Made by a program: the position numbers and the translations under genes. A stretch of 23,874 bases of DNA from a virus, in the IMG/VR virus record IMGVR_UViG_3300020141_000051, positions 1 through 23,874 of that record; one strand, written 5' to 3'. This document shows, one piece after another, positions 2,325-9,203 of this stretch (position 1 is its first letter; every line of letters starts with the position of its first letter). The notes beneath the pieces were generated by a model. It was not told the origin of the DNA, searched no databases, and worked only from the letters and a program-made list of their open reading frames with translations.

Positions 2325-2575
2325 TGTTGAACCTTTTGTGATTCTTCGTAAACTCTCATCAGTCTACTTACATCTTCCATTCGTTCTTGAAATACATCAG
2401 GACTAGTCTGTGCTGTTTTCATCATATCGTACTCACTTGGGTAATGTCTAAGTAAGGCGCGAGCTTGTTGTCGTACTGCTAGTGGAACTCGTTTAGTTTC
2501 ACTAGAGAAACATAGTGATTTTAAAAACTTTTCTGTTTGAACAACAGCTCGATATCGTTCGTCAGGTAATGTCAT
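2321..2575 (-). CDS. BPSL0761-like small protein
   Basis: An 84-aa basic protein beginning MTLPDERYRAVVQTEKFL and carrying RVPLAVRQQARALLRHYPSE. This matches my memory of the proteobacterial BPSL0761 family: a PDERYR start, then an R-x-RALLRHYP segment. The molecular function is unknown. It is all-helical in appearance, with no membrane segment. The ATG overlaps the TGA of the transglycosylase gene and its own TGA overlaps the next ATG. A BPSL0761-type gene hints at a proteobacterial host. The family call rests on pattern recognition, not on a search. Confidence 0.65.
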   Translation of the reverse strand: MTLPDERYRAVVQTEKFLKSLCFSSETKRVPLAVRQQARALLRHYPSEYDMMKTAQTSPDVFQERMEDVSRLMRVYEESQKVQQ

Positions 2576-4263
2576 AATTCGAATAGACTTTCATTAAAGA
2601 CTGGTTTATGTGACTCTTCTATTGTAGCACTTGGCTTGTCTTTTGTCAAGTCCGCTTCAATGTCAAAGTGCTCATTTGCGTAGGTACTAGCATTAATTGT
2701 TTTCTTACCAATTGCGCCACGTGTGCCTGGAATAGCAATCCAAAATTTGCTATAGTATTCAATAATGGCAAGAGCATCTTCTCTGTTATCTGCTGAGAAA
2801 ATGGCATCAACAACATCTTTAAAGAATAATCTATCACCAGTATTTTCTTGGACTAACATCTCAGGACATAACCCTTTGTCATATTCTCGGTTAGCTTCTT
2901 GCACACTATTCAAATGTTGCCAAACATTATGGCCCATCATAATAGCATAGCTAAAACTATCCCACGATGTACGACCTTCCTTGCCATTCTTGTTTAAATC
3001 GCCAGGTGCGTAAATACAAATGTCTTTGATTGGTACTTGATCCATTACTGGACTTGTGGTAAACGATTCAAAAAACTTATCTTGTATTACAGCATCTTGG
3101 AACGGTCTTGTGTCTTTTGCGTATTTCTTGTCGTCAACGCTGGGTAACATGCGGTAGAGCCATTTGCTCCTGTCTGTAATTTCTGTTTGGACATAGATTT
3201 GTCCGTTTGCTGTTGCCAGAAACGGTGAGGCGCAGTCAAAAGATATGGTAAAGTTTTCATTATGGTGCTTCCTAATAGCTCGTTGAATATCAGTTAATAA
3301 CAATGCCCACTCTAACTTAGAGGTGCCCAAGAAGTGCATCCAGTCTTGCTGACCTTTTTCAAGGAGGCCATCAAACTTCAATGCTACTAATCTTTTTAGT
3401 ACAAGTTCTACGTCACACATATTCTGTCCACCCATAGCCCAGCCGTTAAATGGCCTGTCATACTTGGTTGGATCGCAAAAGTCTTTCATTTGTTGATACC
3501 AATCTTCTGCTTGTTTGTGCGTTTCGCCTTGTAATACATTTAAGAACTTACAGGCGCCGGTGCGATGTTTAATAAAATATTCGTTATTATACTTTGTTGC
3601 CGCAACTGCTTGGTCGTAATCGCCCACACCACTATTACGAGCACCTACTGGACTACGCCCGACCCACGCTGGAATATCAAGCACCATGCCGTAATCCATG
3701 AGTGTATCCATCCAGTTAAGAACTTGCTCACGTTTCTTTTGTGCCGCATCTAGTTTAGCTTGATAAAGTTTAACATGATCAATCTTAGTATACTTTGGAT
3801 TGCCATGCTTGTCTGTTTTAGGATGGCCTGTTGGGTGTACTTGTGGAACTAGTTCGATACCTCGAGCAACTGCTTCATCCATGCGCTGGGCTACAACTGG
3901 ACCATTGGGGTCATTCCATTCACCTTCCCACACACCTTTACCGATCTGAAAGCCTCCAGAGTCGCCCAGCACCCAACTAGTTGATCTGTCACGATTGCGG
4001 AACATATCTTCTGCTTCGTCAGTTCTAGTCAAATCTAAATTAGCGTGTCCTGCTGAATACAAGCACCACTTGTAATAAAACAGGCCTTTTTCAGGCTCTA
4101 AGTAATTAAGACTTTCTACTCCGTTAGTAAACGTAGCAGGAATACGTGCCGGATCTACATAATTACCAAAACGTTGTTTGCCTATAAATGTGCTATAGAA
4201 ACCAGACGTTGCTGGTAAAAAATGTGCGTAATCGCTTTGTGCTGTTGTTAAGTCTTTATTCAT
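2572..4263 (-). CDS. dpdA: TGT/DpdA-like base transglycosylase, candidate DNA 7-deazaguanine insertase
   Basis: A 563-aa protein with the queuine/archaeosine tRNA-guanine transglycosylase core. DSGGFQ is at 101-106 (general acid/base Asp in TGT), LNVLQGET at 241-248 (the VQG block), GWAMGGQ at 274-280 (the AIGG block), and FDCASPF at 342-348 in the place of TGT's nucleophile motif FDCVxPT. The TGT zinc motif CxCxxC is absent, and a long C-terminal region (about 360-563) is unlike bacterial TGT. TGT-like proteins in phages are usually DpdA enzymes, which exchange guanine in DNA for a deazaguanine; a tRNA target cannot be excluded. The last residues FNESLFEL resemble the polymerase clamp-binding tail, and the gene lies in the clamp operon. 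No preQ0 synthesis gene is in this window. The symbol is tentative. Confidence 0.75.
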   Translation of the reverse strand: MNKDLTTAQSDYAHFLPATSGFYSTFIGKQRFGNYVDPARIPATFTNGVESLNYLEPEKGLFYYKWCLYSAGHANLDLTRTDEAEDMFRNRDRSTSWVLGDSGGFQIGKGVWEGEWNDPNGPVVAQRMDEAVARGIELVPQVHPTGHPKTDKHGNPKYTKIDHVKLYQAKLDAAQKKREQVLNWMDTLMDYGMVLDIPAWVGRSPVGARNSGVGDYDQAVAATKYNNEYFIKHRTGACKFLNVLQGETHKQAEDWYQQMKDFCDPTKYDRPFNGWAMGGQNMCDVELVLKRLVALKFDGLLEKGQQDWMHFLGTSKLEWALLLTDIQRAIRKHHNENFTISFDCASPFLATANGQIYVQTEITDRSKWLYRMLPSVDDKKYAKDTRPFQDAVIQDKFFESFTTSPVMDQVPIKDICIYAPGDLNKNGKEGRTSWDSFSYAIMMGHNVWQHLNSVQEANREYDKGLCPEMLVQENTGDRLFFKDVVDAIFSADNREDALAIIEYYSKFWIAIPGTRGAIGKKTINASTYANEHFDIEADLTKDKPSATIEESHKPVFNESLFEL

Positions 4264-4806: not shown

Positions 4807-4982
4807 TCGATTTTACCCCATTTAATTTTAAGCCACACTCGTTCCATAGCATAGTGTAAGAATGCCAGGACTATATGGATTGCGACTGCGTCACTAAGAC
4901 CAGTCCATAGCGCCGTAATGAGCAAGGCCGCAACCCTATAAGTTACGGTCCTTGCTATTGTGCGAATATGTTTTTCACTCAT
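4803..4982 (-). CDS. DUF2061-family membrane protein, 59 aa
   Basis: A short gene starting at ATG 4982 and ending TGA 4803. The product begins MSEKHIRTIARTVTYRVAAL, has a hydrophobic middle (about 18-44) and ends in HYAMERVWLKIKWGKIE. The pattern K-T-x-x-Y-R near the start and H-E-R-x-W-x-K-I-x-W-G near the end is what I know of DUF2061 proteins, two-span membrane proteins of unknown role that also occur in marine phages. The ATG shares its A with the clamp stop codon (TAATG) and its stop overlaps the next start (ATGA). Both junctions strongly support a real gene filling an otherwise empty 175-base gap. Confidence 0.8.
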   Translation of the reverse strand: MSEKHIRTIARTVTYRVAALLITALWTGLSDAVAIHIVLAFLHYAMERVWLKIKWGKIE

Positions 4983-5713
4983 TACTTGCTCTGTGCTGGG
5001 AGAATATAGTTGTATTCTGCCAAGCCACTGTCCACAGTAATCTGCATTGCGCCAGCGTCTGCGATACGAATAGTCTTGTCACCAGCTAGAGCCAAAATGC
5101 TCATAACTTGTGTAACAGGCCAAGACCACACTTGACGCAACTTACCGTCAACGCCCGCTTGGAAAATAAAGCTACCTGCGTGTGTGCTAGCATCACCAAA
5201 GCTAAACACTAGATTGCTACCGTCTGTTTTAACTTGGAAAACAGTTTCTTCGCTGTGTGCGTTTGCTTGAAATTTCAATCTTTGAATACTAGTTACTGTA
5301 GGCTCGAATTCAATATCCCACTTAGCACCTTTGAACTTTACAGTTTTCAATTTTTCATTGATAACTTCTGTGCTCATAAAACGATAGTCGTTTTCAAAGT
5401 CTCCATCCTTGTTTTCAAAGTGTAGACCTGTTGGAACAGTTTCGCCATTGCGTTCAGCACTGACTAAACTAATGCGAGCATTCTCTTTGTATTCTGGGCA
5501 TTTCAAGTGAATGTCCAACTTGTTCAAGTTAGGCATACCAAATACGCCTTCAAACTCGTCAACCGGTGCTTTTGTTTTAGCACTAATGATAACGCTACGG
5601 TCTTCCGCCATTGCCTCGATAGCAGTTTCGGTGCTATCAGCTGTTACTTTAGCTAACGGAATAAATCCGAGAGCGTGTGTATGTGCTACTAAATCTTGTA
5701 AAATGTCTTTCAT
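4982..5713 (-). CDS. 45: DNA polymerase sliding clamp (T4 gp45-like)
   Basis: A 243-aa protein of the length and style of T4-like processivity factors. It is beta-rich, with the order KDILQDLVAHTHALGF at the N-terminus, VFGMPNLNKLDIHLKC around 60-75, and NYILPAQSK at the very end, as in gp45 proteins whose C-terminus closes the last strand. It should form a trimeric ring that tethers the polymerase and, in T4, also activates late transcription. The ATG at 5713 is preceded by GGAG (5723-5720) at good spacing. An in-frame ATG at 5725 lies on that same GGAG and is unlikely to be the start. A near-consensus promoter lies just upstream, so this is the first gene of its operon. Confidence 0.85.
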   Translation of the reverse strand: MKDILQDLVAHTHALGFIPLAKVTADSTETAIEAMAEDRSVIISAKTKAPVDEFEGVFGMPNLNKLDIHLKCPEYKENARISLVSAERNGETVPTGLHFENKDGDFENDYRFMSTEVINEKLKTVKFKGAKWDIEFEPTVTSIQRLKFQANAHSEETVFQVKTDGSNLVFSFGDASTHAGSFIFQAGVDGKLRQVWSWPVTQVMSILALAGDKTIRIADAGAMQITVDSGLAEYNYILPAQSK

Positions 5714-5734
5714 GTGAATCTCCATATGTTAATG

Positions 5735-6536: not shown

Positions 6537-9203
6537 TTAGAACTCGAATAAACTGTTAAATGTATTTTTCTCTTCTGTACTACTGATATTCCAGTTTAGA
6601 ACGCCGATTAAGTTTTCTAACTTCTTATCAATGATAGTAGCCTCCATTTCTGAGTGATTAAATGGCAAGTCTTTAAACCATTGTGGCAATCGCAATTCGT
6701 CTACTGGATACGCAACACTGGCATATTCTAGTGGATTAGCCTTGAGCTTACAAACAATAACTTTAGCACCGTCTGTAATGTTGGCACTATACTTGTCATC
6801 GAACATACGTTTTAATGTGTTCCAGTTGATACTAGCACGAACGTGTCCGGGCATGTTAGTCTTGCCAGCTTTCTTTTCTTTATCTTGATAGTCTGTAATA
6901 TTGTTAGCACGTTTAGGGCTACCTTTCTCCCAACCTGGTCTAGCCTTAAAACGAATACGAAATTCGCTAATAAAATCTAGCACGTCTTGTTCGGTGGCTC
7001 CTGTTAAGACCTTTTCAAGTACATCACTTAAAAAGTCTTGAATAAATTCCGGCGTATCACTACGCTTCAAATCCAAGCCCATGGCTTTGATCTTACCAGG
7101 TTTACCATCTACGTCTGCTCGTTTGCCTTCCTTATCATAGTATAGCACCGCATAACGTTTTTTAGTAATAAACAAACTTTTACTGCCAACAATTTCTCGA
7201 CCTGCTTTAATGACTTCACCACGTGACTTTGGACAGTGGAATGTATCCAACATAAACTGTGGGAAAGTATCATTTACTTCTTCGGCAATTTGATCATATA
7301 GTTGAACTACACTCTCTTTTGTCCAAGGAATAAGACCCTTGTCAATGTCTTTCTTTAGTGTAGTATATGCTGAGAAGTAACAGGAGTCTGTGTCACCGTA
7401 GATAATTGCCTTGCCGCGGTAATCGTACTCTCCGCAAACAATTTCATTTACCTTCCCAGCCATATGCTTGACAATCTGACGCCCAGTAAGAGTTGTAGAT
7501 TGGCCGATACGTTTATCAAAAAAGCGACACCCAGAATTAAGAATGGCGCCATATAGCGAGTTAAGGTTAATTTTCTTAACCAACTGTCTCTTGTCCCAAT
7601 ACTCTTCTTCAATTTTGTTACCAGCATTGATAGCCTCCTTTAGTTTGGCCTGCATCTCTTTACGTTCGCTGTACCAGCGTTTTAGTAGCCCTGGAATAAT
7701 ACCTTCTTTCTCGTAGGTAAAGATAGTACCATTAGCACTAAGTACCCAAGGTTGATTACTTTCAAAAATAAGTCTGTATACTTCTGCCGCTGACAGAATA
7801 TCACTAGATCCATCTTCCCAGTCGATAGTAATGTCCGTGCCAATTTGCTGTTCCATTACGGCTGTATACTCTAAGCTACCGAACACACCCTCCCAAGAAG
7901 CCGCGAATGATTTACCTTTGGCCATTTGTGCTTCAATAAACTCTTCAGTTTGTGTTTGACGCAACTGTCCAACAATAGTCTCTGGGCCCATGTTAAGCGC
8001 ACGAATAGCACTTGGGTACAGACTGTTAATGTCTAGTGATCCAATCCAATCGTGAATGCCTTCTTTAGGATAGGCAACATAAGCACCTGCCGCTTGACTG
8101 TCTTCGCGTTCGTCCATTTTAGTACGGTTAGGTACTTGGAATCCTCTGCGGTGTGCTTCGTTAATAATAGCCTGTTCAGTTACCGCTACAGCACCCATTG
8201 TAGTCTGTAGCAATACAGTACATTCGTGTGCCAAGGTGTTAGCAAGGTCGATAAACTTTAACTTCTTGTCCAGTTTTTCAAGAAGCATACAGTCGTTGAT
8301 GTTGTATTCAACGAATGTTTTAAAGTCATTGTTGTATAGTTGATCCAATGTACCTTCGTACTGTGTCTTACGCTCGCCTAGTTCGTATTCGGCAATAGCG
8401 TCTAGTCGATAGGTATGCCGTTCTTCATATGTATACTTTCGATACAGTTCCAAACTATCTAAGTGTACACGACCTACAAAGTCATAAGTTGTAGCCAGTC
8501 GTCCAAACTTTTCGTACTCACGTTTCTTTGGCAGTTGATTAAACAAACAGAAGCGTCTTGTATCATCTTTGCTTAGAACTTTAGTAACACGATTAACAGT
8601 ATACGGGACGTCGAAGCCTTCACTGTTCCAGCCGCTGATAACATCTGCGTCTTGTATTAGGTCCAGGAACATGTCCAACATATCTGCTTCGTTGTCAAAC
8701 AAATATGTGTTGGGAAATTCTTTAACCATTTCCTTAGCTTCTTCCATCTTAAGACCTTTGGGAGGAAGTGCTAGGCAAACCATTGTTTGCATCCATTGTA
8801 GGTAGACAGCAATCGCAGTAATTGGCATAAACGCATCGTCTGGGCTAGCATAGCCACGTTCTGGATCAAAGTCTACCTCAATGTCATAAAACGCTACGTT
8901 TAGTTTAGGAGCATCTTGATTAAGATAGTTTTCACTAAGTGTGACAAAGATTGGATTAATATCGCTTTCAAATAATTGCTTACCTGAATTGATAGCTTGT
9001 TCTTTGCGTAGTTCTTTTGTGTTCTTACATACAATACGTGTTACGGCATCACCGTAAATTGATTGATGTTTGCCCTTAGGGTCTTTAACGTAAAACGTAT
9101 GTTTTACGGGTATGTCGCGAAATTCTCTTTCGCCTTTTTTATTACGTTCGACCACTTTGATAACATCGTTCTCGCGGTCAAACCATGCGTCTACATAGCT
9201 CAA
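6537..9203 (-). CDS. 43: Family-B DNA polymerase (T4 gp43-like)
   Basis: An 888-aa replicative polymerase, close to T4 gp43 length. The proofreading exonuclease motifs are intact: FYDIEVDF (D107, E109), GWNSEGFD (191-198) and YNINDC (Y300, D304). The polymerase motifs are intact: DINSLYPS (391-398), KKINLNSLYG (543-552), YGDTDS (602-607) and KKRYA (681-685). The last residues TFNSLFEF match the acidic-hydrophobic C-terminal clamp-binding peptide known from T4/RB69 polymerases. The start is TTG at 9203: AGGAG lies seven bases upstream, and the product then begins MSYVDAWF as expected. A non-ATG start plus upstream hairpins suggests that synthesis is limited at translation. Confidence 0.95.
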   Translation of the reverse strand: MSYVDAWFDRENDVIKVVERNKKGEREFRDIPVKHTFYVKDPKGKHQSIYGDAVTRIVCKNTKELRKEQAINSGKQLFESDINPIFVTLSENYLNQDAPKLNVAFYDIEVDFDPERGYASPDDAFMPITAIAVYLQWMQTMVCLALPPKGLKMEEAKEMVKEFPNTYLFDNEADMLDMFLDLIQDADVISGWNSEGFDVPYTVNRVTKVLSKDDTRRFCLFNQLPKKREYEKFGRLATTYDFVGRVHLDSLELYRKYTYEERHTYRLDAIAEYELGERKTQYEGTLDQLYNNDFKTFVEYNINDCMLLEKLDKKLKFIDLANTLAHECTVLLQTTMGAVAVTEQAIINEAHRRGFQVPNRTKMDEREDSQAAGAYVAYPKEGIHDWIGSLDINSLYPSAIRALNMGPETIVGQLRQTQTEEFIEAQMAKGKSFAASWEGVFGSLEYTAVMEQQIGTDITIDWEDGSSDILSAAEVYRLIFESNQPWVLSANGTIFTYEKEGIIPGLLKRWYSERKEMQAKLKEAINAGNKIEEEYWDKRQLVKKINLNSLYGAILNSGCRFFDKRIGQSTTLTGRQIVKHMAGKVNEIVCGEYDYRGKAIIYGDTDSCYFSAYTTLKKDIDKGLIPWTKESVVQLYDQIAEEVNDTFPQFMLDTFHCPKSRGEVIKAGREIVGSKSLFITKKRYAVLYYDKEGKRADVDGKPGKIKAMGLDLKRSDTPEFIQDFLSDVLEKVLTGATEQDVLDFISEFRIRFKARPGWEKGSPKRANNITDYQDKEKKAGKTNMPGHVRASINWNTLKRMFDDKYSANITDGAKVIVCKLKANPLEYASVAYPVDELRLPQWFKDLPFNHSEMEATIIDKKLENLIGVLNWNISSTEEKNTFNSLFEF

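Follow-up and report, generated by a model that had tools for sequence, protein, structure and literature searches.

Our data show that a protein with the fold of tRNA-guanine transglycosylases (TGTs), encoded in a viral DNA stretch of 23,874 nucleotides (the window), ends in a short motif resembling the C-terminus of the DNA polymerase from the same window, and that this motif recurs across its homologues. The best explanation, which we consider quite probable, is that the motif binds the sliding clamp and couples DNA modification by the enzyme to replication; clamp binding, DNA substrate, timing and processivity are all predicted here. In the proposed mechanism, the flexible C-terminal tail would present a clamp-binding motif of the T4/RB69 polymerase type to the peptide pocket of the phage PCNA-like clamp. 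The docked enzyme would be kept on the DNA behind the fork, where it would exchange guanine for a 7-deazaguanine base, made by phage FolE/QueD/QueE and possibly finished by the host. We favor a clamp-tethered enzyme acting on DNA because the motif is conserved at ~30% identity, lies in a disordered tail and is kept when it moves, and because the clamp and polymerase genes are adjacent and 7-deazaguanine genes are found in related genomes.

The window TGT had no match in Pfam, PHROG, NCBIfam or PADLOC. A PDB sequence search with profiles of the TGT and the clamp returned nothing significant, so both proteins required a fold search. An AlphaFold 2 (AF2) model of the TGT matched TGTs in Foldseek (E 8e-8) and aligned with 4gi4 over 305 residues (VIA Z 19.6, rmsd 4.6 Å; all top matches being TGTs), as expected of the TGT (beta/alpha)8 fold. 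The protein contains both catalytic-region Asp motifs, DSGGFQ and IS[FY]D, and the Asp of each is invariant in our alignment A1. The C-terminal CxCx2C zinc site of bacterial and archaeal tRNA TGTs was found in 0 of 112 homologues. Residues 514-563 are predicted to be disordered. We take the protein to be a probable TGT-fold DNA base-exchange enzyme, from a subfamily of large (jumbo) phages. The ATG start codon of a small BPSL0761-family gene overlaps the TGT stop codon (ATGA).

Table 1 Features in the window and a nuclease gene of related loci (positions in the window unless a locus is given)
Feature	Position	Strand	Basis
BPSL0761-family protein, 84 aa	2321..2575	(-)	NF041728 E 1.6e-18
TGT-fold base-exchange enzyme (DpdA-like, probable), 563 aa	2572..4263	(-)	AF2 model vs TGTs; DSGGFQ and ISFD motifs
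Disordered C-terminal region, residues 514-563	2575..2724	(-)	pLDDT ~30; degraded internal motif site (STYANEHFDIE) and terminal motif; homologue comparison
Polymerase-like tail FNESLFEL, putative clamp-binding motif	2575..2598	(-)	Homologue, tail and shuffle comparisons
Sliding clamp, 247 aa, PCNA/gp45 fold	4982..5725	(-)	AF2 pLDDT 90.6; PCNA Z 17.9 over 226 residues
Family B DNA polymerase (T4 gp43-like)	6537..9203	(-)	phrog_262 E 4e-200; PF00136 (DNA_pol_B)
MutH-like nuclease	L010:12190-12744; L058:12272-12850; L287:10405-10962; others		

The TGT has the C-terminus HKPVFNESLFEL, with the last residues ...PVFNESLFEL, and the polymerase ends in NTFNSLFEF. An earlier, sequence-only reading had paired the two endings (marking 2572-2610, the stop codon and 12 residues of the TGT) and held that no other window protein ends alike. 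A regex search covering every window ORF of at least 60 aa agrees, finding such a tail in these two proteins only. Among 2240 distinct other ORFs in related loci (closed, on the same strand as the TGT and at least 80 aa long), only 6 have an [LF]F[DE][FLWV]? end; one is a polymerase fragment and three come from a single nuclease family. Against shuffled versions of its 60 C-terminal residues, the window TGT tail gave p=0.014; with their own tails shuffled likewise, 37 of 58 representative TGTs gave p<=0.02, where about one would be expected. We considered gene conversion of the polymerase 3' end into the TGT gene and found it not supported: the codons differ (TTTAATGAAAGTCTATTCGAATTA versus TTTAACAGTTTATTCGAGTTC) and the spacing is off by one residue.

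We compared the tails of 112 representative homologues; the motif can be written as hydrophobic-x-x-(L/F)-F with an acidic or aromatic residue next. A profile scan reached TGTs only ~30% identical, and nearly all of these relatives carry the same motif; scans of viral contigs with the PA5oct and Vibrio 2.275.O TGTs gave no matches. In five distant relatives, the TGT and polymerase motifs are NTFGSLFEV (PAQNTFGSLFEV) and NTFNKLFDFE (L236), NEFNKLFDF and NTFGSLFSF (L248), NSFNSLFDV and HFDSLFGW (PA5oct), NNDLFGW and NTDLFDW (Vibrio 2.275.O), and LNEFFEF and LQAFFEF (L250), with each polymerase motif at the C-terminus.

The motif occupies two positions. An xLF-type terminus occurs in 17 of the 112 representatives, two of them weak (Phosso and L138, with only EGLF and GGIFS), while at least 78 carry an F-x-x-L/F-F motif ~30 residues inside the disordered tail. 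Internal motifs follow directly on a conserved NAST stretch (FANLFDE, FSALFDE, YSKFFEE) and precede an acidic extension that ends in a DxKLxxLE block. This second acidic block lies at the very end of internal-motif TGTs (L012, L236, L081) and is missing from terminal-motif TGTs. Terminal tails include FNESLFEL in the window, LNESLFEF (L015), LNDNLFEL (L069), LNDSLFEF (L078), NTFEDLFE (L064) and TTFDSLFE (L086). In these tails the internal site is degraded, as in STYANEHFDIE of the window; in the window, L015, L069, L078 and the L064 group it has decayed while the terminal motif was kept. Within the internal class, motif position 4 is always F, positions 0 (F) and 3 (L/F) are nearly fixed and the surrounding linker is variable, a pattern that arises partly by construction since rows were chosen by F..LF. 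When the tail is excluded from tree building, the tail state needs 18 changes among the 112 representatives. The terminal tails of the window, L015, L069 and L078 are alike, so repeated origin and shared descent with recombination are equally possible.

A strict regex scored 17 of the 112 tails as having no motif; read by eye, most hold weak forms (NDLFYE, NKDLFDW, NSLFVE, SFFEEA), and weak versions also occur in L219, L239, L254 and L287. Among the 112 tails, the motif is clearly missing only from the clade of L217, L263, L267 and L291. A conserved motif of the clamp-binding type on a TGT-fold enzyme is thus well supported by these comparisons. The expectation that the tail would be conserved in homologues holds for the motif and fails for its C-terminal position, which is the minority state.

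The window clamp ORF has no Pfam match; its PCNA-like fold covers 226 of 247 residues, and it is 35% identical to a protein of Phosso that carries a sliding-clamp annotation. Polymerase, clamp and TGT genes follow one another on the same strand in 203 of 206 loci; the earlier reading had placed the TGT gene in the clamp operon. The TGT gene still follows polymerase and clamp in two members of the motif-less clade. In PA5oct, the clamp relative (L081:4915-5661) is annotated as a "structural protein", a label that probably misnames a PCNA-fold clamp. A Hef-like homing endonuclease gene seemingly interrupts the PA5oct polymerase gene (L081:1-4834).

With a weight matrix trained on polymerase tails only, the median TGT tail scored 9.6 bits; among 1558 other ORFs the 99th percentile was 8.8. 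The matrix ranked the TGT 2nd of 381 proteins in one related genome (G001), 3rd of 425 in Vibrio 2.275.O and 1st of 344 in PA5oct; in G002, where the motif is an FF variant, the TGT ranked only 49th of 402. Where the polymerase has FF (the L051/L058/L066 group, L250 and L268), the TGT motif has FF every time, versus ~1/20 elsewhere (Fisher p 4e-4 on representatives); only three of these pairs are independent, and all three are concordant (sign test p 0.25). The L268 TGT motif, TSFFEE, was read by eye after the scan pattern missed it. Within-clade permutation gave p 0.01 and 0.03 at the L/F position, uncorrected for ancestry, making co-variation of the two tails at this position suggestive. Permutation supports the L/F position only and not the rest of the motif, and we rejected a general co-variation. 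Of the clamp residues, only position 35 tracked LF and FF tails, without a clear pattern. As a positive control we also looked for a homologue of the late sigma factor gp55, and found none.

Genes for 7-deazaguanine synthesis lie in relatives of the window and none within it. FolE was found in 9 of 9 related genomes or contigs examined and QueD in 7 of 9, and on one contig (G004) QueE (phrog_2076, E 3e-53) adjoins FolE, ~10 kb downstream of the clamp gene. PA5oct encodes a 7-carboxy-7-deazaguanine synthase near its TGT, and annotated queuosine-pathway genes adjoin the TGT of Vibrio 2.275.O. Because QueC was found only in Vibrio 2.275.O, phages of the window's clade may insert 7-carboxy-7-deazaguanine, or else preQ0 that the host completes. 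The presence of FolE in all nine relatives, and of QueD or QueE on most, makes DNA the likely target of the enzyme. QueD was considered as a further clamp client since the G001 protein ends in NENLFE; this end is not kept in G002, and a similar end in L217 sits on an unrelated protein.

We weighed four other accounts of the tail. The most serious, though clearly less probable than replication-coupled modification, shares clamp binding with it and differs on timing: the enzyme would act mainly after the fork or independently of it, with the tether only raising its local concentration. T4 alpha-glucosyltransferase sets a precedent, binding the clamp gp45 (Sommer 2004; PMC13216743) while expression level, not gp45 binding, sets its share of the modification (PMC13216743). 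The DpdA2 enzyme of phage nt-1, whose DNA contains dPreQ0 (PMC6884629), has no motif, which also fits fork-independent action; the strong conservation and relocation of the motif in our family suggest instead a real fitness effect. Since neither one of the clades nor nt-1 DpdA2 has the motif, it is, on this comparison, needless for DNA modification as such. The earlier proposal of a clamp-loaded enzyme modifying DNA stands in part, with conservation, relocation and the adjacent polymerase and PCNA-fold clamp genes in its favor and these two absences against it.

It is improbable that the enzyme is instead a tRNA-guanine transglycosylase with a tail that resembles the polymerase's by accident or has some other role. 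This account could draw on the closest solved structures, which are tRNA TGTs, and on the alternative use of FolE and QueD for folate or queuosine, but the missing zinc site, the position in the replication operon and a tail resemblance far above chance argue otherwise. The preference for DNA over tRNA voiced in the sequence-only reading gains from the pathway genes in relatives, the absent CxCx2C site and the operon position, and is tempered by the structural matches. Equally improbable is a shared non-clamp partner of both tails (RNA polymerase, SSB or the clamp loader), given a T4 gp43-like polymerase, in which such a tail binds the clamp (PMC2988020), and a PCNA-fold clamp gene lying between polymerase and TGT. 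Chance or composition, by which acidic, hydrophobic tails look alike, could draw on the minority of terminal forms and the motif-less homologues, but is very hard to reconcile with the own-tail shuffles and the proteome ranks of 1-3 in three genomes. For replication-coupled modification, the conserved and removable eight-residue motif turns the timing and placement of 7-deazaguanines in phage DNA into a directly testable question. The case for a DNA target extends to a large number of TGT-like proteins that currently carry a hypothetical annotation.

Outside the window, a few kb downstream of the TGT in related loci, we identified a MutH-like nuclease of 184-208 aa (a sub-threshold Pfam match). 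It ends in an xLF-type motif in 12 of 12 distinct versions (such as NNFGSLFE, STFQNLFAYDN and RERFFD), and in L058 the polymerase, TGT and nuclease all have FF. These tails suggest that the nuclease is likely a further clamp client. More speculatively, and in our view rather unlikely, the clamp could act as a toolbelt that holds polymerase, base-exchange enzyme and nuclease by one motif, so that modification and a mark- or mismatch-dependent nick would follow the fork together.

Three T4 proteins, gp43, gp55 and gp33, have similar C-termini that bind gp45 and can replace one another (PMC2988020), and T4 ligase carries a clamp-binding motif as well (PMC7892883). The window TGT shares the short, hydrophobic-acidic, polymerase-like motif on a flexible linker seen in these T4/RB69 proteins, and the window polymerase is also gp43-type; whereas gp43, gp55 and gp33 are a polymerase and transcription factors, the motif here belongs to a TGT-fold enzyme, most homologues of which carry it internally. 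DpdA and DpdA2 (PMC6884629) share with it the TGT fold, the DSGG and IS[FY]D motifs and 7-deazaguanine synthesis genes in the genome (here in relatives). The similarity between our family and nt-1 DpdA2 is remote, with a profile match of just 7 bits (E 1.3e-4, computed for a single target), and the nt-1 gene lies within a preQ0 gene cluster and not, as here, after the clamp gene. Because nt-1 DpdA2 lacks the motif though its own polymerase ends in LESFFG, the clamp tether would be a property of this TGT subfamily. We found no description of a clamp-tethered base-exchange enzyme in the literature within reach of our search. The sequence-only reading had called this a new coupling of replication to base modification, which is too strong given T4 alpha-glucosyltransferase. 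Like that enzyme, the window TGT is predicted to be a phage DNA-modifying enzyme on a phage sliding clamp; the T4 enzyme glucosylates hmC and does not exchange bases. By this analogy, the coupling known from T4 would here be extended from glucosylation to base exchange.
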